Assembly (NCBI RefSeq): GCF_010550695.1
Contig: NZ_JAAGOB010000018.1
Coordinates: 1 to 64,000 of the forward strand
DNA length: 64,000 nt
Direction: 5' to 3'
From: Phytoactinopolyspora alkaliphila
GTDB lineage: Bacteria > Actinomycetota > Actinomycetes > Jiangellales > Jiangellaceae
A program made the translations under genes and the position numbers. The notes beneath the pieces were generated by a model. It was not told where the DNA came from and searched no databases. It saw nothing but the letters and a program-made list of their open reading frames with translations. Positions 28,812 to 37,021 of the stretch are shown piece by piece. Every line of letters starts with the position of its first letter. Within the stretch, counting starts at the first letter, position 1.

Positions 28812-28891
28812 CGAGGAAACACGTCGTCCGTCCAGTAGTCCAATATGCCTATCGGAGCACGTTCGAACGACCTTGGATATCGTTGCTGTTC

Positions 28892-29842
28892 GTGGACCTA
28901 GTTCGACATCTGGCGTACTTCACCGCCATCGCCCATGAACGGCATTTCGGCCGGGCCGCGCAACGGCTCGGTATGCGGCAGCCGCCGCTCTCCCAGGGCC
29001 TGAGACGCCTGGAATCCGAGCTCGGCGTCCGCCTGTTCGACCGGGACAGCCAGGGGGTCACCCTCACCGACGCCGGAACGGCGCTCCTGCCCGCGGCGCA
29101 TCGCGTGCTCGACGAGGTCGAACAGCTCCAGCTCCTGGCGCGGAGGCAGGAGACGCCCACCCGCGAGCGTTGCACTGTCCGGGTGGCGCCAGGGCTCGGC
29201 GCACGCCACTACGCGGCGCTCGTCACGGCGTGCCGTCGAGCCGTACCGAGCGCCGATGTCGACGTCAGCGAGCAGTCCACCGCCGACCAGGTCCAGGATC
29301 TGCTCCAGGGTCGCGCCGACATCGGGATCCTGCGGGAGCCCGTCGCAGCGCGCGGCTTGACGTGGGGCGCCCGCGTCGTTGTGCCACTGCGATGCCTCAT
29401 GCCTGCGGACCACCCCGCCGCCGCGGCCGGGCGCGTACGGTTACGCGACCTGTCCGGCTTCGAACTGATCCTACCCCCGCGGGATCAGGCTCCCGCCGCC
29501 CACGACGAACTCGTCGCGGCGTGCGAGCGGCACGGCTTCCTGGCGGGCAAGGTCTCCGGGGTCGCCGACGACCGGCTGGTCCATGGGCTCGTCGCCTCGG
29601 GCGGGCAGGTCAGCTTCACCACCGACGCACCCTCGGCCGGCGAAGGCGCCGCGATCGTCCCGATCGACGACGAGCCGTTGGTCCTCACATTGCGCGTGGC
29701 CTGGCGGGGCACTCTCGACGTCCACGTGCGCTCGCTGCCGCAGACCATCGTCGGCGCCCTCACCCGCCGGCACGCGTCCCCGACGGTGCATCCCGGCCGC
29801 ACACCCCGCGCTGCGTCCGAGCTGCCGGCGGAACCGGCATGA
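28892..29842 (+). CDS. LysR family transcriptional regulator
   Basis: 316 residues; HTH in YFTAIAHERHFGRAAQRLGM and QPPLSQGLRRLESELGVRLF, then the effector domain. I start at the GTG at 28892, directly before the family-typical DLVRHLAYF, with TATCGT (28878-28883) eight bases ahead, so leaderless translation is likely. The stop overlaps the start of the downstream beta-lactamase-like gene (ATGA). Divergent from the transpeptidase operon, which it may also regulate. Confidence 0.88.
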   Translation: MDLVRHLAYFTAIAHERHFGRAAQRLGMRQPPLSQGLRRLESELGVRLFDRDSQGVTLTDAGTALLPAAHRVLDEVEQLQLLARRQETPTRERCTVRVAPGLGARHYAALVTACRRAVPSADVDVSEQSTADQVQDLLQGRADIGILREPVAARGLTWGARVVVPLRCLMPADHPAAAAGRVRLRDLSGFELILPPRDQAPAAHDELVAACERHGFLAGKVSGVADDRLVHGLVASGGQVSFTTDAPSAGEGAAIVPIDDEPLVLTLRVAWRGTLDVHVRSLPQTIVGALTRRHASPTVHPGRTPRAASELPAEPA

Positions 29843-30726
29843 GCACCGCCGCCCACGGCATACAACGCTCGTTCGACGACGCCGGAGTGTTCGGCTATCT
29901 CCATGCTCGCGCGCTGCACGAGCCCGGCCGGGAGATCGGGCTCCTCCCGGACGATCCCGTGGTCCTCGCCTCCGTCTTCAAACTGCCACTCGCCGTGGCA
30001 TTCGCGCGTGCGGTCGACGACGGCCGGCTCGACCCCACGGAGCCGGTCACGCTCTCGCCGGACACCCGCACACCCGGCGCCACGGGATTCGCGGCGATGT
30101 CGGACCCGGTCACGATCTCCTGGCGCGATGCCGTCCGCTCGATGATGACAGTCAGCGACAACGCGGCCGCGGACGCGTTGCTCGACGCTCTCGGGACGGA
30201 CGACGTCAACTCCACACTGGCCGAGCTCGGGCTGACGTCGACACGGGTATCCGGCGGGACCCGGCATCTGTACGCATCCCTGATCGCGGACTTCGGCAGC
30301 CCGTCGCTGAGCGAGGCGATCAGGCAGGTGCAGAACGCCACCACCCTTGACGAGCTCACCAGCTTCGACCCGCATCTCACCACAAGTACCGTGGGAACCT
30401 GCCGCGACATGACGGCGCTGCTGGAAAGCGTCTGGCACGATCGCGCGGCCTCGGCGGAACAATGCGCTTTCATCCGCGAGGTCATGGCACAGCAGGTCTG
30501 GACTCAGCGGCTCGCTGCGGCCTTCCCGTTCGACGACGTGGTGGTGGCGGGCAAGACCGGGACCTTCCTTGCCCTGCGCCACGAGGTCGGCGTCGTCGAG
30601 TACCCCAACGGGGAGGCATACGCGGTGGCGGTGTTCACTCTCTCAACGCGCGCCCGCTTGATCCTTCCCGGCGCCGACGCGGCCATCGCCCAGGCGGCGA
30701 AACTCGCCGTGGCGGTGTTGCGCTGA
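29839..30726 (+). CDS. Beta-lactamase-like serine hydrolase
   Basis: 295 residues, class A beta-lactamase fold: SxxK in LASVFKLPLAVAF, SDN in MMTVSDNAAAD and KTG in VVAGKTGTF. No signal peptide or lipobox is visible: the catalytic Ser is only about 45 residues from the N terminus, so the protein appears cytosolic or is exported by an unusual route. True penicillinases are exported, so an esterase-like or intracellular role is possible. The ATG overlaps the LysR stop, so the regulator and hydrolase are co-translated. Confidence 0.85.
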   Translation: MSTAAHGIQRSFDDAGVFGYLHARALHEPGREIGLLPDDPVVLASVFKLPLAVAFARAVDDGRLDPTEPVTLSPDTRTPGATGFAAMSDPVTISWRDAVRSMMTVSDNAAADALLDALGTDDVNSTLAELGLTSTRVSGGTRHLYASLIADFGSPSLSEAIRQVQNATTLDELTSFDPHLTTSTVGTCRDMTALLESVWHDRAASAEQCAFIREVMAQQVWTQRLAAAFPFDDVVVAGKTGTFLALRHEVGVVEYPNGEAYAVAVFTLSTRARLILPGADAAIAQAAKLAVAVLR

Positions 30727-30824
30727 GCACACGCAGCACCGCTTGCTCGTCGGTTGTCGCTGAGTGCTCCGGGCCTCGGGCCGATTCGTATGTCCGAATC
30801 CACCAGGGAGATGCCAAAGGGGTA

Positions 30825-30862
30825 TTTGACATCTAGCAGTTGTCAAACATACCTTTGACTTT
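30825..30862 (+). promoter_or_regulatory. Leaderless promoter with embedded operator of the ArsR gene
   Basis: TTTGACA (30825-30831) and TGTCAAA (30841-30847) form a perfect 7-9-7 inverted repeat. The left arm contains a consensus -35 (TTGACA). A -10 TACCTT lies at 30850-30855, and its predicted start site coincides with the GTG at 30863. Bound protein would block RNA polymerase, so autorepression by the ArsR-type product is likely. Confidence 0.75.
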
Positions 30863-31417
30863 GTGCGCATTACCGATCCCCAGGCCATGCGGGCCATGGC
30901 CCATCCGCTGCGGCTGAGTCTGATCGAATTGCTCGGAGCCCTCGGCCCGTCAACGGCCGCACAGTGCGCCCGTCACCTCGACTCCACCCAGGCAAGCTGT
31001 TCGTTTCACCTGCGCCAGCTGGCCAAGTATGGCTTCGTCGAGGAGGCACCGCCCAGCGGTGATGCCCGGGAGCATCCCTGGCAGCTGACGGACGTCGAAC
31101 AGAATTGGGCCGCCGACGGCGGGCCTGCCGCCGATGAGCTGGAGCGTGTCTTCGTCCAGCGAGAAGCCGACAGAATCCTGGCCTGGCGGGCGAAGGCCGA
31201 CGGTCAGCCCGAGCACTGGCGCGGCGCGTCCTTCGTCGGCGGCGCCACCGTACCCATGACCGCGGGCGAGCTCGAATCGGTCCGCGGCCAGATCCGGGCC
31301 GTTCTCGAGCCGTACATCGCCCGGCTGTCCGAGCGCACGGACTGGCCTGCGGACCACCGGTTCGTCCGCATCCTCCTCGCCGGCACACCACTGAGCCATC
31401 TCGACGAAGGAGAGTAG
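30863..31417 (+). CDS. ArsR-type winged-helix regulator
   Basis: 184 residues; the first 75 form a winged HTH: ITDPQAMRAMAHPLRLSLIE, PSTAAQCARHLDSTQASCSF, HLRQLAKYGFVEEA. The C-terminal 100 residues are an extra helical region without an obvious metal site, as in the HTH_20 regulators of actinobacteria. The first GTG sits where transcription should start. It is followed by an alpha/beta-hydrolase gene with a 2-bp gap, which it probably regulates together with itself. Confidence 0.88.
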   Translation: MRITDPQAMRAMAHPLRLSLIELLGALGPSTAAQCARHLDSTQASCSFHLRQLAKYGFVEEAPPSGDAREHPWQLTDVEQNWAADGGPAADELERVFVQREADRILAWRAKADGQPEHWRGASFVGGATVPMTAGELESVRGQIRAVLEPYIARLSERTDWPADHRFVRILLAGTPLSHLDEGE

Positions 31418-31419
31418 AC

Positions 31420-32391
31420 ATGCCAACGGAGATCGACGCCGTTGTACCGACCGCCGTCGGTGATCTGGGAGCTCTGATCCGAATCCCGGATGCGGACACG
31501 CCGTTGCCCGGCGTCGTCCTCGTCGACGGATCCGGCGAAGGCGACCGCTACGACTGGGGCGGCTGGCCGGAGTGGATCGGCGACGCCGGCTCAGTGGTAC
31601 TCCGCCACGACAAGCCGGGTTGTGGCGGTTCGCCCGGCCATTGGACCGAGCAGACACTGCAGGACCGCGCGCGGGAATCGCTGGCCGCTGTCGAAATGCT
31701 GCGCCGTCATCCAGCCGTCGCCGGGCAGCCAGTCGGCTTGTACGGCATCAGCCAGGGCGGCTGGGTGTCGCTCATCGCGGCCGCCATGCAGGAGCCATCA
31801 GTGGACTTCGTCGTCTGCCATTCCGGGCCTGGAGTCAGCCCGGCCGAGCAGGAACGGGTGCGCATCGGGCGCGAGCTACGCGCGTCGGGCCTCTCCGGTG
31901 ACGACGTGGCGGAGGCGATGGCATGGGTCGACGAGCGGGCCGCGCGGATCCTGCGCGGCGACAGCCCGGAGTCGATCTCCGCCGATCAGGAGCGATTCGC
32001 GGCTCGGCCCTGGTACTCGATCGCGACGACAGGCGCCTACGACGACCCGGACGTGCTCCGCTTCGCGAGCCGCATCTTCGCCTTCGATCCGCTGACCGTG
32101 CTGCCGAAGGTGACGTGCCCGGTCCTGACACTCCTCGGCGGCGCCGACACCTTGATTCCGGTTCCCGCCAGCGTGGCAGCATTCGCCGAACATCTGCCGC
32201 CGTCCCCAGACGGGCACGGCCTCGCCGTGTTTCCCGGCGCGGACCACGGCCTGTACATGGCCGACCCGGACCCCGCGATGCCGCGCCGTGATCAGCTCGC
32301 ACCCGGGTATCTCCAGATGGTCGAGGGCTTCCTCTCGGCCCGGAAGTCGGTGGATCGGAAACCGACATCATCCGGGCTATTAGCCCGATGA
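31420..32391 (+). CDS. Alpha/beta-hydrolase (dienelactone-hydrolase-like)
   Basis: 323 residues. VVLVDGSGEGDRYD (oxyanion region), the nucleophile elbow GISQGGW (Ser), GGADTLIP with the acid and GADHGLYM with the His complete the triad. No signal peptide. In one operon with the ArsR regulator, 2 bp downstream, so likely induced by a compound it degrades. The end of the gene (VDRKPTSSGLLAR) lies within a strong stem-loop that contains the stop codon. Confidence 0.85.
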   Translation: MPTEIDAVVPTAVGDLGALIRIPDADTPLPGVVLVDGSGEGDRYDWGGWPEWIGDAGSVVLRHDKPGCGGSPGHWTEQTLQDRARESLAAVEMLRRHPAVAGQPVGLYGISQGGWVSLIAAAMQEPSVDFVVCHSGPGVSPAEQERVRIGRELRASGLSGDDVAEAMAWVDERAARILRGDSPESISADQERFAARPWYSIATTGAYDDPDVLRFASRIFAFDPLTVLPKVTCPVLTLLGGADTLIPVPASVAAFAEHLPPSPDGHGLAVFPGADHGLYMADPDPAMPRRDQLAPGYLQMVEGFLSARKSVDRKPTSSGLLAR

Positions 32392-32399
32392 TGTCGGTT
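32360..32399 (+). terminator. Stem-loop spanning the hydrolase stop codon
   Basis: 18-bp stem with a one-base bulge and a 3-nt ATT loop (32360-32378 with 32382-32399). The TGA stop is in the right arm. There is no U-tract, so it is either a Rho-type/processing hairpin or a palindromic repeat element. Confidence 0.6.
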
Positions 32400-32457
32400 C
32401 GCCTTGATCCGGAACTGGCGTGTTTCGCCGCTAACTGGGCCGCTGACCCCTGAATCA

Positions 32458-32518
32458 ACAAAAACGGCCCTCCGAGGAGGGCCGTCAGGGTCACGCTCGT
32501 TAAAACGTGACCGGGTAT
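32458..32518 (-). ncRNA. Candidate small RNA, about 61 nt
   Basis: A complete minus-strand transcription unit without a reading frame. Promoter: -35 TTGCAT (32553-32548), 17-bp spacer, -10 TATAGT (32530-32525). The predicted RNA has a 7-bp hairpin (32512-32506 with 32495-32489, 10-nt loop) and then a perfect 10-bp hairpin (32485-32476 with 32473-32464, 2-nt loop) followed by TTTT-G-TT. It does not match the 6C, 6S or other actinobacterial RNAs I can recall. It is divergent from the NYN nuclease gene and convergent with the hydrolase gene, with which an antisense contact is possible. Confidence 0.65.
32464..32485 (-). terminator. Intrinsic terminator of the small RNA
   Basis: ACGGCCCTCC and its exact complement separated by two bases, followed on the minus strand by TTTT, G, TT. 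One of the best intrinsic terminators in the window, and it has no protein-coding gene upstream of it. Confidence 0.8.
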
Positions 32519-32524
32519 GCACTC

Positions 32525-32553
32525 ACTATATGACTCGCCCCGGTCATATGCAA
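32525..32553 (-). promoter_or_regulatory. Promoter of the small RNA with operator-like palindrome
   Basis: Between the -10 and -35 lies ATATGAC (32528-32534), eight bases, GTCATAT (32543-32549), a perfect 7-8-7 inverted repeat overlapping both promoter elements. A repressor bound there would shut the unit off. Confidence 0.6.
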
Positions 32554-32706
32554 CCGGAAAACCGAGCATCTCGCATCTAGCGCACGCTAGTGCAGCCTAG
32601 ACGGATTCATCAGCCGCAGACCGCGCCGACATTGTCAGCGGCACCTGGCACGATCATGGCAACAGACCTCACCCGGACCGTCCGCCGCCGCCGGAGGACA
32701 CTCGTG

Positions 32707-33336
32707 ATGAACCAGAGGTGCTCAGTGTCCCAGCTCATTGTCTATGTGGACGGCTTCAACCTCTACCACGGCCTACACGAGAAGTGGGGCCGGCGGTATC
32801 TGTGGTTAGACCTGGTGGAGCTGGCTCGTTCCCTTCGCCCGGATGATGACCTCGTGGCGGTCAAGTACTTTACGGCGAGCGTACTCGACGACCCAGACGG
32901 CCAAGCTCGTCAGGACACATACATCAATGCGCTCACTGCGCGTCACCCGCAGGTCTTCTCAGTCATCTACGGGCGATACCAACGCAAGCAGATGACGTGC
33001 CGGACTTGCGGCATCACCTGGCGGAGCTACGAGGAGAAGGAAACCGACGTTAATATCTCTGTGTCGATCGTTGCGGATGCCGCGAGTGAGGCCATGACTA
33101 GCGCGCTGCTTGTCAGTGCGGACAGTGACCTCGCACCGGCGATCCGAACGGCCAAATCAACGGCACCTGGTCTCTTCGCGGTCGCTGCGTTCCCGCCTCG
33201 GCGTTCGTCCACCACACTGCGCACTCTTATGCCATCATCGTTCACCATCGGTGCAGGACGTATCAGAGCCGCCCAACTGCCAGACATCGTCACGGTGGAG
33301 GGCGCCACCTACAAGCGTCCGGCCAAGTGGACCTGA
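32707..33336 (+). CDS. NYN-domain (LabA/DUF88-like) nuclease with zinc-ribbon insert
   Basis: 209 residues. LIVYVDGFNLYHGL is the first Asp-containing NYN/PIN strand; KETDVNISVSIVADA and ALLVSADSDLAPAI supply the other acidic residues of the active site. A CRTC pair in QMTCRTCGITW suggests a metal knuckle. Such proteins are predicted RNases and occur alone or in defence loci. ATG at 32707 follows GGAGG by nine bases; GTG at 32704 and 32725 are alternatives. Base composition is lower in G/C than the flanking genes, consistent with transfer. It neighbours the small-RNA candidate. Confidence 0.8.
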   Translation: MNQRCSVSQLIVYVDGFNLYHGLHEKWGRRYLWLDLVELARSLRPDDDLVAVKYFTASVLDDPDGQARQDTYINALTARHPQVFSVIYGRYQRKQMTCRTCGITWRSYEEKETDVNISVSIVADAASEAMTSALLVSADSDLAPAIRTAKSTAPGLFAVAAFPPRRSSTTLRTLMPSSFTIGAGRIRAAQLPDIVTVEGATYKRPAKWT

Positions 33337-33443
33337 CCATGTGCCGGCACGAGCGTCCCGGCCACACTGGCTATGCCGCGACGAGGCTCACTTTCACGAA
33401 GCCGTGTGTAGTGATCAGCAGCGGACGTGTAGGGTCGAATTAC

Positions 33444-35243
33444 ATGTGCGGACTCTCTGGCGAGTACACCTTCGACGGCCGCCCGGCTGACCTCGCGGCC
33501 GTGGCCAACATGTGTGAGGCGATGGTCTCGCGCGGACCCGACGATTACGGGGCATACGCGCACGGATCGCTGGCACTCGGGCACCGGCGGCTGTCCATCA
33601 TCGATCTCTCTCCCCACGGCCATCAGCCCATGGTCGACTCCGACCTCGGCCTGACCACGGCGTTCAACGGCTGTATCTACAATTATCAAGAGCTGCGCGA
33701 AGAGCTGCGCCGAGCCGGATACACCTTCTTCTCCACCTCCGACACCGAAGTGATCGCCAAGGCCTACCACCACTGGGGCGAGGACTGTGTCGATCGCTTC
33801 CTGGGCATGTTCGCCTTCGCCATCCACGAGCGCGACAGCGGCCGGCTGATCCTGGCCCGGGACCGCCTCGGCATCAAGCCGCTCTACTACTCGGAGAGCA
33901 ACGAACGGATCCGCTTCGCCAGCAGCCTGCCCGCCCTCGTCCGCGGTGGCGATGTGGACACCAGCATCGACCCAGTGGCACTGCACCACTATCTGTCCTG
34001 GCACGCCGTCGTACCCGCGCCTTACACGATCCTCAAGGGCATCCGTAAACTCCCGCCGGCCACCATGCGGGTCATCGAACGCGACGGCACCAGCCGTGAG
34101 CGGCTGTATTGGGATCTCACTGCCGCCCGTGACCCGGAGAAGGCGTCCTGGACCGATTCCGACTGGGAGGAGGCGGTTCTCGAGTCGCTGCGCGTGTCGG
34201 TCCGCCGCCGGCTCGTGGCGGACGTCCCCGTGGGCGTGCTTCTCTCCGGCGGGCTGGACTCCAGTCTCGTCGTCGGGCTGCTCGCCCAAGAGGGCCAGAC
34301 CGGCCTGAACACGTTCAGCATCGGCTTCGACGCCGTCGGCGGAGAAGAGGGCGACGAGTTCAAGTACTCCGACGTCGTCGCCCGCGAGTTCGCCACCGAG
34401 CACCATCAGATCCGGATCGGCACCGAGCGGATGCTTCCGGCGCTCGAAGACGCCATCCGGGCCATGAGTGAGCCCATGGTCAGCCACGACGCCGTAGCGT
34501 TCTTCCTGCTCAGCCAGGAGGTCAGCAAGCACGTCAAAGTGGTGCAGTCCGGGCAAGGCGCCGACGAGGTGTTCGCGGGCTACCACTGGTATCCGCCACT
34601 GGCAGGAGCCGGGCGGGACGACGCCGTGGCTACCTACGCCCAGGCGTTCTTCGACCGCAGCCACGAGGAGATGCGCGGCGTGGTGCGTCCGGAGCACCTG
34701 GTGGACTCACCCGTCAGCCTCGACTTCGTCACCGACCACATGAAGCGCCCCGGCGCCGAGACCGCGGTCGACGCCGCACTGCGGCTGGACACGCAGATCA
34801 TGCTGGTGGACGACCCGGTGAAGCGGGTCGACAACATGACTATGGCCTGGGGACTCGAGGCACGAGTGCCGTTCCTCGACCACGAGCTGGTGGAGCTCGC
34901 CGCGCAGTGCCCGCCCGAGCTCAAACTGGCCCAAGAGGGCAAGGGCGTGCTCAAGGAGGCCGGGCGCCGAGTGGTGCCGCACGAGGTGATCGACCGCCCC
35001 AAGGGGTACTTCCCGGTGCCGGCGCTGAAGTACCTGCGTGGACCGTACTTGGAGCGAGTCCGCGATGCTCTGCACTCCCCCGCGGCACGGTCCCGCGGCC
35101 TTTTCCAGCCTGCCTACGTCGACCATCTTCTGGCGGACCCGAATGCCGAGCTCACTCCGCTGCGCGGGAACAGACTGTGGCAGCTCGCCCTCCTGGAGAT
35201 GTGGCTGCAGACCCATCTGCCTGACGCGGGCAACACGCCGTGA
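33444..35243 (+). CDS. asnO: N-acetylglutaminylglutamine amidotransferase (AsnB-like)
   Basis: 599 residues. Class II glutamine amidotransferase domain with the nucleophile Cys2 (MCGLSGEYTF), RGPDDYG, RLSIIDLSPHGHQPM and NGCIYNYQELREEL; then a synthetase domain with the PP-loop LLSGGLDSSLVVGLL. Asparagine-synthetase relatives are diverse, but the overlapping next gene is the NAGGN dipeptide synthetase, so this enzyme should amidate the dipeptide to the osmolyte N-acetylglutaminylglutamine amide. TAGGGT (33430-33435) lies eight bases before the ATG, suggesting a leaderless mRNA. Confidence 0.92.
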   Translation: MCGLSGEYTFDGRPADLAAVANMCEAMVSRGPDDYGAYAHGSLALGHRRLSIIDLSPHGHQPMVDSDLGLTTAFNGCIYNYQELREELRRAGYTFFSTSDTEVIAKAYHHWGEDCVDRFLGMFAFAIHERDSGRLILARDRLGIKPLYYSESNERIRFASSLPALVRGGDVDTSIDPVALHHYLSWHAVVPAPYTILKGIRKLPPATMRVIERDGTSRERLYWDLTAARDPEKASWTDSDWEEAVLESLRVSVRRRLVADVPVGVLLSGGLDSSLVVGLLAQEGQTGLNTFSIGFDAVGGEEGDEFKYSDVVAREFATEHHQIRIGTERMLPALEDAIRAMSEPMVSHDAVAFFLLSQEVSKHVKVVQSGQGADEVFAGYHWYPPLAGAGRDDAVATYAQAFFDRSHEEMRGVVRPEHLVDSPVSLDFVTDHMKRPGAETAVDAALRLDTQIMLVDDPVKRVDNMTMAWGLEARVPFLDHELVELAAQCPPELKLAQEGKGVLKEAGRRVVPHEVIDRPKGYFPVPALKYLRGPYLERVRDALHSPAARSRGLFQPAYVDHLLADPNAELTPLRGNRLWQLALLEMWLQTHLPDAGNTP

Positions 35244-37021
35244 ATGAAGGCCGCCGCCGAGGGGGAAGCGAGCCCCGTCAACCGTTGTGGACCCGGCCCT
35301 GGCAGGAGACGCCCGAACATCTCGTACGTGACATGCGCCGTGGTGTGGCGATGGACTGCGGATGGGGCCGGCTGATCTTCGCCCAGACGTTCGACGACGA
35401 CGCCGACATCATCACCCTCCTGCGGGCCGAGGAGGAGGGTCGGCGGGACATCGCCATGTACGTGCCCGACCCTCATGTCCTGGTGTCGAGGGCGCCCGAC
35501 GAGCTGTTCATCGACCCGTCCATGACCTACCGGCTGGAGCTGCACCGCTACCGGCCGCGCCGGGAGACCATCCCGGGCGTGGTCGTGAGCACGATGGCCG
35601 ACGCGAACGACGCCGACGAGGTCAATCGCATCTACGCAGCCCGCCACATGGTGCCCGCCGATCCCGACCTGATGTGGTCCAACCAGCGCACACGCACCTT
35701 CACCTACCTGATCGCGAAGGACGAGCACACCGGCGCCGTGATCGGCACCGTGACGGGCGTGGATCACGTCTTGGCCTTCGATGACCCCGACCAGGGGACC
35801 AGTCTCTGGTGCCTGGCGGTGGACCCGCAGACCCCGGTGCCCGGAGTCGGGGAGGCGCTGGTACGCGTCCTGGCCGAGCGTTACATCGGCCGTGGCCGCG
35901 ACCATCTCGATCTGTCGGTGATGCATGACAATGACCCCGCCATCCGCCTGTACAAGAAGCTGGGCTTCCGCCGGGTGCCGGTCTTCGCGGTGAAGCGCAA
36001 GAACATCATCAACGAGCCGCTGTTCGTGCCCGAGCCGGAGGCGGACGTCGTCGAACTCAATCCCTACGCGGCGATCATCGCCGACGAAGCGCGACGGCGT
36101 GGCATCCTGGTCGAGGTTCTCGACCCGGAGTGGGGCGAGATGCGACTCGTGCACGCCGGCCGCAAGATCGTCACCCGGGAATCACTGTCCGAGCTCACCA
36201 CGGCAGTGGCGATGAGCCGGTGCGACGACAAGCGAGTCACCCGCCGGATCTTCGAGCGTGCCGGCCTCCGCGTCCCGCGCGGTATCGCGGCCGGCGACCA
36301 CGACGCGGAGAAGGCCTTCCTGGAGGAGGTCGGTGAGGTGGTCGTGAAGCCGGCCCGGGGAGAGCAGGGACGCGGCATCACGGTGGGCGTCAGCGATGCG
36401 GACGCGCTCGCCCGGGCAGTGTCGCTGGCCACCACCTACTGCCCCGACGTTCTCATCGAACAATGTCACGACGGTGAAGACCTGCGTATCGTCGTCATCG
36501 GCCACCAGGTGGTCGCCGCCGCGGTGCGCCGGCCGGCATCCGTCATCGGCACCGGACGGCACACCATCGCCCAGCTCATCGACCGGCAGAGCAGACGGCG
36601 CGCCGCCGCCACCGGCGGCGAGTCGACGATCCCGATGGACGACGTCACCGAGGACACCCTGAAGGCCGCCGGTCACACTCTCGACGACGTCCTACCCGAC
36701 GGCGTCTCCCTCCAGGTTCGCCGTACCGCGAACCTGCACACCGGAGGCACCATCCACGACGTCACGGCTGAGCTTCATCCGGAGCTCGCGGAGGCCGCGG
36801 TCAAGGCGAGCCGGGCGATCGACATCCCGGTCACCGGCCTCGACATGCTCGTTCCCTCGGTCGACCAGCCCGAGTACGTGGTGATCGAGGCGAACGAGCG
36901 TCCTGGGCTGGCCAACCATGAGCCCCAGCCCACCGCCGCCCGGTTCATCGATCTTCTCTTCCCGGAGACGAGGCCGGCGCCCCGGGCCTGGGAGCCTCCA
37001 CCCCCTAGCTCATCGCGGTAA
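35240..37021 (+). CDS. ngg: N-acetylglutaminylglutamine synthetase (GNAT plus ATP-grasp)
   Basis: 593 residues fusing two enzymes: a GNAT acetyltransferase (about 105-255; VDPQTPVPGVGEALVRVLAE, DNDPAIRLYKKLGFRRVPVF) and a cyanophycin-synthetase-like ATP-grasp ligase (about 320-585; VVKPARGEQGRGITVGVSDA, LIEQCHDGEDLRIVVIG, IEANERPGLANHEPQ). Together they acetylate glutamine and join a second glutamine. The start overlaps the asnO stop (GTGA). NAGGN is a compatible solute made under osmotic stress in Pseudomonas and Sinorhizobium; the same two-gene order is used there. Confidence 0.92.
   Translation: MNEGRRRGGSEPRQPLWTRPWQETPEHLVRDMRRGVAMDCGWGRLIFAQTFDDDADIITLLRAEEEGRRDIAMYVPDPHVLVSRAPDELFIDPSMTYRLELHRYRPRRETIPGVVVSTMADANDADEVNRIYAARHMVPADPDLMWSNQRTRTFTYLIAKDEHTGAVIGTVTGVDHVLAFDDPDQGTSLWCLAVDPQTPVPGVGEALVRVLAERYIGRGRDHLDLSVMHDNDPAIRLYKKLGFRRVPVFAVKRKNIINEPLFVPEPEADVVELNPYAAIIADEARRRGILVEVLDPEWGEMRLVHAGRKIVTRESLSELTTAVAMSRCDDKRVTRRIFERAGLRVPRGIAAGDHDAEKAFLEEVGEVVVKPARGEQGRGITVGVSDADALARAVSLATTYCPDVLIEQCHDGEDLRIVVIGHQVVAAAVRRPASVIGTGRHTIAQLIDRQSRRRAAATGGESTIPMDDVTEDTLKAAGHTLDDVLPDGVSLQVRRTANLHTGGTIHDVTAELHPELAEAAVKASRAIDIPVTGLDMLVPSVDQPEYVVIEANERPGLANHEPQPTAARFIDLLFPETRPAPRAWEPPPPSSSR

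Follow-up and report, generated by a model that had tools for sequence, protein, structure and literature searches.

The locus studied here raises the question of what is transcribed from a stretch in which a promoter-like hexamer pair, a palindrome, two hairpins and a U-tailed terminator follow one another on the minus strand. It lies in the window, by which we mean the whole 64,000-nucleotide stretch of Phytoactinopolyspora alkaliphila DNA that was analysed, and the original prediction had read it as a self-contained, regulated small RNA. We found that the RNA is a member of a widespread family of structured RNAs of about 60 nt, the genes of which lie beside a gene for an NYN-domain nuclease.

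The small RNA of the window and its nearest relatives

Direct reading of the minus strand from 32553 to 32458 indeed gave the promoter-like pair, both hairpins and the U-tailed terminator. The -35 hexamer TTGCAT (32548-32553, minus strand) is separated by a 17-nt spacer from the -10 hexamer TATAGT (32525-32530, minus strand), which stands 8 nt before a conserved ACCCC, a position that is clustered in 40 RNAs. The pair that had been called a consensus-like promoter is thus present, but its agreement with the consensus is only moderate: 8 of 12 letters match, and a promoter scan of 30000-36000 with a cut of 9/12 reported nothing, the RNA promoter falling below that cut. The palindrome inside the spacer is there as well, in the form of a 7-bp inverted repeat ATATGAC-N8-GTCATAT that overlaps the promoter (32528-32549, no strand assigned; arms of 7 nt each at 32528-32534 and 32543-32549) and is a candidate operator. 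Downstream of the promoter pair the minus strand continues with GAGTGCATACCCGG, then a stem-loop and then a GC-rich hairpin with a T tract; read directly 3' of TATAGT, the letters are GAGTGCAT and then ACCCGG.

The RNA with its two hairpins occupies 32458-32521 of the minus strand, as delimited by covariance-model matches and covariation. Its 5' end is probably near 32518-32516 (GCATACCC), and we place its 3' end in the U tract. Stem-loop 1 (32489-32512, minus strand), assigned from the fold z-score and compensatory changes, is GGTCACG...CGTGACC with arms at 32512-32506 and 32495-32489. Stem-loop 2 together with the U tract (32459-32486, minus strand) is both an intrinsic terminator and the conserved second stem (GACG...CGTTTTT); its arms ACGGCCCTCC and GGAGGGCCGT lie at 32485-32476 and 32473-32464 and are followed by the T tract TTTTTGTT. 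The minus strand from 32525 to 32450 folds with -37.4 kcal/mol (z -5.08), which 0 of 200 shuffles equalled. A terminator scan of both strands returned this terminator as the sole one in 30000-36000; since the shuffled sequence of this region holds on average 1.9 terminator-like sites, it is unremarkable taken alone. The array nevertheless stands above chance because it recurs beside NYN genes across phyla, its TANNNT boxes are clustered and both stems covary, as detailed below. The transcription unit is very likely a genuine, uncatalogued small RNA, and the promoter position together with the terminator points to a separate transcript with its own promoter, in keeping with the separate small RNA unit that had been predicted. 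At the gathering score Rfam has 0 matches in the window, and its five matches over 20 NYN loci are all tRNA or RNase P RNA, none of them at the small RNA, which agrees with the earlier remark that it matches no familiar RNA family.

A BLASTN search with a query of 161 bases against 99 genomes, that of the window among them, furnished six matches outside its own genome. Two are true homologues, both from the same genus (L009 and L010), and carry a TTG-17-TANNNT pair at the same place; the matches L004-L007 were rejected as homologues, since on reading they were terminator-like or coding. The spacer palindrome was looked for in L009 and L010 as the nearest relatives and is absent from both. The operator palindrome was therefore rejected as a conserved part, and the regulation that had been read from it finds no counterpart in these two other genomes of the genus. 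In one of the genus homologues the element lies 5' of an NYN-domain gene, as in the window; the other has it on the opposite strand, immediately 3' of such a gene. The element thus moves, yet keeps its place next to NYN. The unit is not self-contained, as had been proposed, but coupled to the NYN nuclease gene at its side.

Structure of the RNA family and its linkage to NYN genes

Three covariance models were used, the E-values of which are rough estimates. R1 was built from three sequences of one genus, R2 from A7, a sequence-only alignment of 40 R1 matches, and R3 from 21 Bacteroidota loci and one phage record. The window RNA scores 89.9 bits with R1, as one of its source sequences, and 55.7 bits with R2, in the alignment of which it has a row. 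In A7, 90.4% of the cells are in standard pairs, compared with a mean of 73.5 in shuffled and 38.8-50.1 in slid versions. Covariation scores 0.474, where shuffled alignments give 0.179 and 0 of 500 shuffles are as high; relatedness of the rows inflates the contrasts with shuffles, and the slid controls, which retain this relatedness, agree. The stem covariation in homologues to which the original prediction had looked is there, with compensatory changes in 15 of 18 pairs. Helix 1 has them at all 7 pairs. In stem-loop 2, 6 of 9 pairs have changes on both sides and two are invariant, and the short apical helix 2, of two pairs, is paired in just 60% of the A7 cells. RNAalifold, unaided, gave the same two main stems. 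The R3 alignment is 95.8% paired, 7 of its 12 pairs are compensatory, and its score is 0.344 against 0.128.

Recurrent unpaired features are a 5' ACCCC or AUCCCCC and a CCCG or CUCG linker. The apex of stem 1 is conserved in subgroups, being of the AUAGCAU type in many type A RNAs and of the GUGGAAAAUAC type in Bacteroidota. Within about 60 nt upstream of 40 RNAs, 41 of 60 TANNNT hexamers lie 6-10 nt before the A of ACCCC, a pile-up that places the transcription start near this A; a paired promoter candidate is absent in two of the 40. R3 also matched L039 (3e-4) and L036 (1e-3) at the right place, both outside its training set and phylum, and hence the Bacteroidota and type A RNAs look homologous. 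A type B RNA is seen at L013, L014, L024, L035 and L112, in L013 as GTTGGTTACGGCCAAC followed by GGCGGCCCC...GGGGCCGC; it accompanies an NYN subfamily, of which the L013 and L014 proteins carry an extra cysteine-containing insertion. The Bacteroidota RNAs at L091:2869-2980 and L094:2866-2983 have two stem-1-like hairpins before the terminator and recall the repeated antitoxins of type III systems.

For the linkage we took 80 NYN loci as a sample of at least 535 found; R2 was given 77 of them (all except L016, L020 and L061), R1 70, and R3 the Bacteroidota and a few others. Combined, the three models locate the RNA at 71 loci out of the 80, spread over 10 phyla. Tally and training overlaps were counted by hand: 46 of the 71 coincide with training rows or have the same sequence as one (24 loci in A7, 21 in A10, and L016, which is identical to an R1 row), and near-copies of training rows make up five of the other 25 (L050, L060, L067, L072, L083), so that the independent weight rests on R1 and those other 25 loci. 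R1 over 96 NYN loci gave 66 matches at E ≤ 0.01, 56 of them full length, and a full-length match at this threshold is found in 34 of the 70 loci given. At L031 the RNA is 2.3 kb from NYN. Nine of the 80 loci are without a model match. Three of these (L024, L035, L054) have R2 matches where the RNA is expected, with sub-threshold E-values of 0.0098 to 0.02, five (L028, L077, L084, L086, L095) have hairpins visible by eye, and the contig of the last, L051, begins 119 nt upstream. Additionally, a model-free scan for a stem, a short linker, a stem and a T-rich run found 59 motifs at up to 330 nt from NYN, or 1.14 per kb, and 4 elsewhere in the same loci, or 0.010 per kb. This approximately 100-fold difference in density partly reflects the contrast between intergenic and coding sequence; a near match exists in 56 of the 80 loci. 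Among NYN relatives at 32-37% identity in Actinomycetes (L015, L108-L111, L113) neither R1 nor R2 matched, and the model-free scan found the hairpin pair at L108 and L113 only. Over 72 NYN loci on viral contigs, R2 (E ≤ 1e-3) matched in 5, R3 in 0 and the hairpin scan in 33.

Starting from the RNA instead, R2 over 393 Actinomycetes genomes gave 41 matches at E ≤ 0.001, of which 19 are at E ≤ 1e-8. All 19 strong matches have NYN next to them, in 17 cases as a long tblastn match (G258 over 173 residues), in L213 as a decayed fragment (8e-6), and in L202 as eight N-terminal codons (YVDGFNLY) identified by eye. Because 16 of the 19 are R2 training rows or identical copies, the independent count is three of three. 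The remaining 22 rows of the 41 lie at 4.9e-8 to 8.8e-4; among 11 of these loci inspected, one has an NYN fragment (L220) and ten have none. A further 199 genomes, selected without regard to NYN, belong to the same class as the Caldilineaceae genome G400, which carries L036; R2 matched at E ≤ 1e-6 in 11 of them, 8 of which are new. Six of the 8 new genomes have an NYN match at most 1.5 kb away, and one has a probable 16-residue NYN remnant next to the RNA (E 0.003). The single exception among strong RNA-model matches is L250, where the RNA is present with no NYN on the 9.1-kb contig. Finally, over 22 genomes picked for their NYN loci, 29 of 29 R2 matches at E ≤ 1e-8 are NYN-linked, 26 at known loci and three elsewhere (L234, remnant 1.3 kb off; L235, NYN cut by the contig end and 2.6 kb off; L236, NYN start at the contig end). 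Two of these 22 genomes, those of L066 and L070, have known NYN loci and no R2 match at E ≤ 0.001, and no NYN was found at G401:C1 (L237), a weak match among the four weakest rows of this search.

The arrangement of the pair varies. Of the rows of the NYN tree, labelled by hand with L031 and L095 left unlabelled, 38 have the RNA divergent from NYN, 12 have it upstream in the same direction, and in 4 it lies antisense on the downstream side. This tree was built quickly from 56 NYN proteins and leaves 24 of its 53 inner branches open. It requires the arrangement to change at least 7 times, and its well-supported branches alone force fewer changes; the pair stays together. In the window the RNA is divergent from NYN and present in a single copy. 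Most Bacteroidota loci, though not the divergent L066, have the order promoter, RNA, terminator, NYN start codon; hairpins and terminator occupy that same position before NYN on several viral contigs and plasmids. Tandem whole RNA units occur at L025 (four) and at L029, L036 and L056 (two each). Those of L025:3659-4035 lie about 105 nt apart, each with its own promoter and terminator; the promoter of three of them is TTGACA-17-TAAYAT, and the fourth is similar. The RNA persists beside NYN remnants at L202, L213, L220 and probably L249, and at L234 the remnant is 1.3 kb away. The NYN frame at L076:3001-3624 has a stop codon with the RNA still upstream and is perhaps another decaying NYN.

The NYN-domain protein and HEC-09

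The NYN-domain nuclease gene of the window lies at 32707-33336 on the plus strand, counted from a presumed start codon; its NYN domain was recognised with Pfam and its HEC-09 membership with PADLOC. Its protein matches Pfam NYN at 7.6e-08 and PADLOC HEC-09 at E 1.3e-67, with residues 9-208 on positions 3-202 of the 203-position profile; all 11 NYN proteins given to PADLOC (6 + 5) matched HEC-09, and NCBIfam had 0 families above cut-off for 6 NYN proteins. The residues D15, N18, E110, D114, D139 and D141 are invariant across 56 aligned NYN proteins. Such invariant residues are a requirement of an active NYN/PIN-like metal site. An AlphaFold2 model of the protein (mean pLDDT 96.4) has a sole PDB fold match at E ≤ 0.001, 2qip (VPA0982, E 6.1e-09), which is the best fold match but has 18% identity and no assigned function; a sequence search for solved relatives at E ≤ 0.01 gave none. 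Conserved residues and predicted fold thus suggest that the protein is an active RNase. In the A8 alignment almost all NYN proteins share a CxxC pair (window residues 98 and 101), perhaps half of a metal site.

The gene is patchily distributed, being found in 6 of 22 genomes of the family (E ≤ 1e-10) and 22 of 393 of the class (E ≤ 1e-15). Relatives of the L039 protein (E ≤ 1e-5) occur in 372 of 72,556 plasmid records, mostly of Klebsiella (207) and Escherichia (46), and 116 cover at least 80% of the query; at the same threshold they occur in 3 of 50,697 phage records. At the Thermus plasmid locus L187 an RNA-NYN pair sits just downstream of an HmaA helicase gene (HmaA 2.5e-279). Seven proteins of the window were scanned with Pfam, and no helicase or methylase was among them. 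Several Hma-embedded candidates are reported to show antiviral activity, and most of the wider candidate class still awaits validation (PMC12988326). A study of Pseudomonas reports a correlation of HEC-09 with susceptibility to phage and not with resistance (PMC12447246). Judged by sequence, an HEC-09-type NYN is a candidate anti-phage gene.

Several small observations may be added. The small E. coli and Klebsiella plasmids of L186, L189, L190 and L191 carry NYN genes with hairpins and a terminator just upstream; R3 gave 0 matches on these four loci, and the L186 NYN scores as HEC-09. Gene 6 of the Mycobacterium prophage prophiGD43A-1 (L195:2489-3109) is an HEC-09 NYN between integrase and immunity repressor. 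R2 weakly matches L161, a viral contig resembling this prophage, immediately downstream and on the opposite strand (E 0.002). Genes for tRNA or RNase P RNA lie near NYN at L018:2665-2736, L026:2458-2530 and L019:3736-4124, possibly as integration sites.

Possible action of the RNA and related systems

Since RNA and nuclease travel together across many phyla, they probably work as a single system, with the enzyme under the control of the RNA. That they are a functional pair we hardly doubt. The RNA is conserved, structured and linked to NYN genes, and the explanation that accounts best for the whole, which we think fairly probable, is that it forms the RNA half of a two-component RNA-NYN module, acting in trans and restraining the RNase. 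We infer a course of events in which the RNA would be made from its own promoter with a 5' end near the conserved ACCCC, and would fold into stem-loop 1 and a second stem that doubles as terminator. Acting in trans, it would most likely bind the NYN protein and hold the RNase activity in check, in the manner of type III antitoxin RNAs and of the RNA that accompanies AbiF. Loss of the RNA, for example through phage shut-off of host transcription, might then free the nuclease for an abortive defence. A protein partner is suggested because the RNA is linked in any orientation, the stems are kept and there is no marked pairing with NYN mRNA. Inhibition of NYN by the RNA has, by analogy, an even chance or slightly better; it is favoured because part of the family has the type III order, the RNA stands beside decayed NYN genes and extra RNA copies occur.

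Type III loci are described as having the order single promoter, RNA, Rho-independent terminator and toxin gene, all in one direction (PMC5086642). Like ToxIN, CptIN and TenpIN/AbiQ, our pair consists of a predicted RNase-like protein and a small structured RNA gene, and the promoter-RNA-terminator-toxin order is found in most Bacteroidota and in several phage and plasmid loci. Unlike them, it has an NYN fold and not that of ToxN, CptN or TenpN (2qip being the sole PDB match at E ≤ 0.001), a single two-hairpin RNA of about 60 nt with its own terminator and not a tandem repeat array, and an RNA that is often divergent or downstream, being divergent in the window. As fold, repeats and gene order in the window disagree, it is not type III by testable features. 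In C. difficile, the ncRNA RCd22 is reported to neutralise the AbiF toxin by direct binding (PMC12373285). AbiF/RCd22 resembles our system as a defence-linked RNase-family protein (here a predicted one) with an adjacent structured ncRNA that has its own promoter and terminator. It differs in that AbiF is a HEPN-type Abi_2 protein and RCd22, with two abiF motifs, lies upstream in the same direction. The CRISPR-associated NYN ribonuclease of Bacteroides fragilis, likewise an NYN-domain protein, is an Mn-dependent ssRNase, so that a bacterial NYN can be an RNase; unlike the window NYN it lies in a type III CRISPR locus with a proposed role in crRNA trimming, and the abstract mentions no small RNA gene of its own (PMC11346440). 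The NYN proteins belong to PADLOC HEC-09 by profile, and the RNA partner is the new part. In the available text of two PADLOC papers HEC goes unnamed, and the ncRNAs that are named are those of retrons. Among the open papers listed, titles and abstract beginnings gave no RNA partner for NYN or HEC-09 except the crRNA of the CRISPR NYN.

It is rather unlikely that the RNA serves as a cofactor, scaffold or guide which NYN needs for target choice or activity, with possible recognition of a target or sensor by the apical loop or the 5' ACCCC tail. In favour of this role are the stem-1 apex, which is conserved in subgroups, a linkage independent of orientation, and the precedent of other defence enzymes that bind an ncRNA (retrons, DRT). 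However, no variable guide segment is seen, the four L025 copies are nearly alike, and the RNA outlasts NYN decay in the relics, which an antitoxin fits better. Only tentatively would we consider HEC-09 an RNP immune system in which the RNA does more than sequester NYN as an antitoxin would, being a sensor or specificity element that directs when or what NYN cuts. It is similarly doubtful that the elements of such a sensor are the conserved apical loop, the 5' ACCCC tail and the GACG/CGU stem base, or that, as this reading would have it, NYN effectors controlled by such RNAs form a class of their own, with no relation to type III toxins, retrons, DRTs and CRISPR.

We consider it improbable that the RNA mainly regulates NYN expression, as antisense, leader or attenuator, and does not act as a protein partner. 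In most Bacteroidota the RNA terminator lies right before the NYN start, so that read-through would set the mRNA level, but elsewhere the RNA gene mostly points away from NYN or follows it, and there it cannot serve as a leader. Cognate RNA-NYN mRNA pairing is slightly better than non-cognate pairing (mean -40.1 vs -38.6 kcal/mol), but the cognate mean ranks of 0.41 for the RNA and 0.42 for the mRNA, given without a significance test, are near the chance value of 0.5. With duplex energies ranking near chance and a varying orientation, cis-antisense control of NYN is disfavoured. Finally, that an ordinary sRNA or a bidirectional terminator lies beside NYN by accident is very improbable: terminator-like sites do arise by chance here, as the shuffles tell, but compensatory changes in two stems, the clustered promoter position, the spread over 10 phyla and the roughly 100-fold enrichment all speak against it.

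HEC-09, a single protein family in PADLOC, gains a conserved RNA component, and a bench test that clones the ORF alone would omit it. The RNA family crosses phyla and is unmatched by Rfam 15. One testable idea is that NYN RNases are paired with a small control RNA, as ToxN-type and HEPN-type RNases are, and with covariance models of this kind, programs that search for defence genes could annotate RNA and protein together.

Three other features of the window may be mentioned. A long hairpin at 32350-32400, AACCGACATCAT-CCGGGCTATTAGCCCG-ATGATGTCGGTT, has no T tract and straddles the end of an alpha/beta-hydrolase ORF (31420-32391). At 28883-30726 a LysR regulator is followed by a beta-lactamase-like gene (Pfam Beta-lactamase2, 1.5e-53). 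An asparagine-synthase-like amidotransferase and a GNAT/ATP-grasp protein, identified by Pfam, stand in tandem at 33327-37021, a gene pair which we take to resemble the pathway of the osmolyte N-acetylglutaminylglutamine amide.
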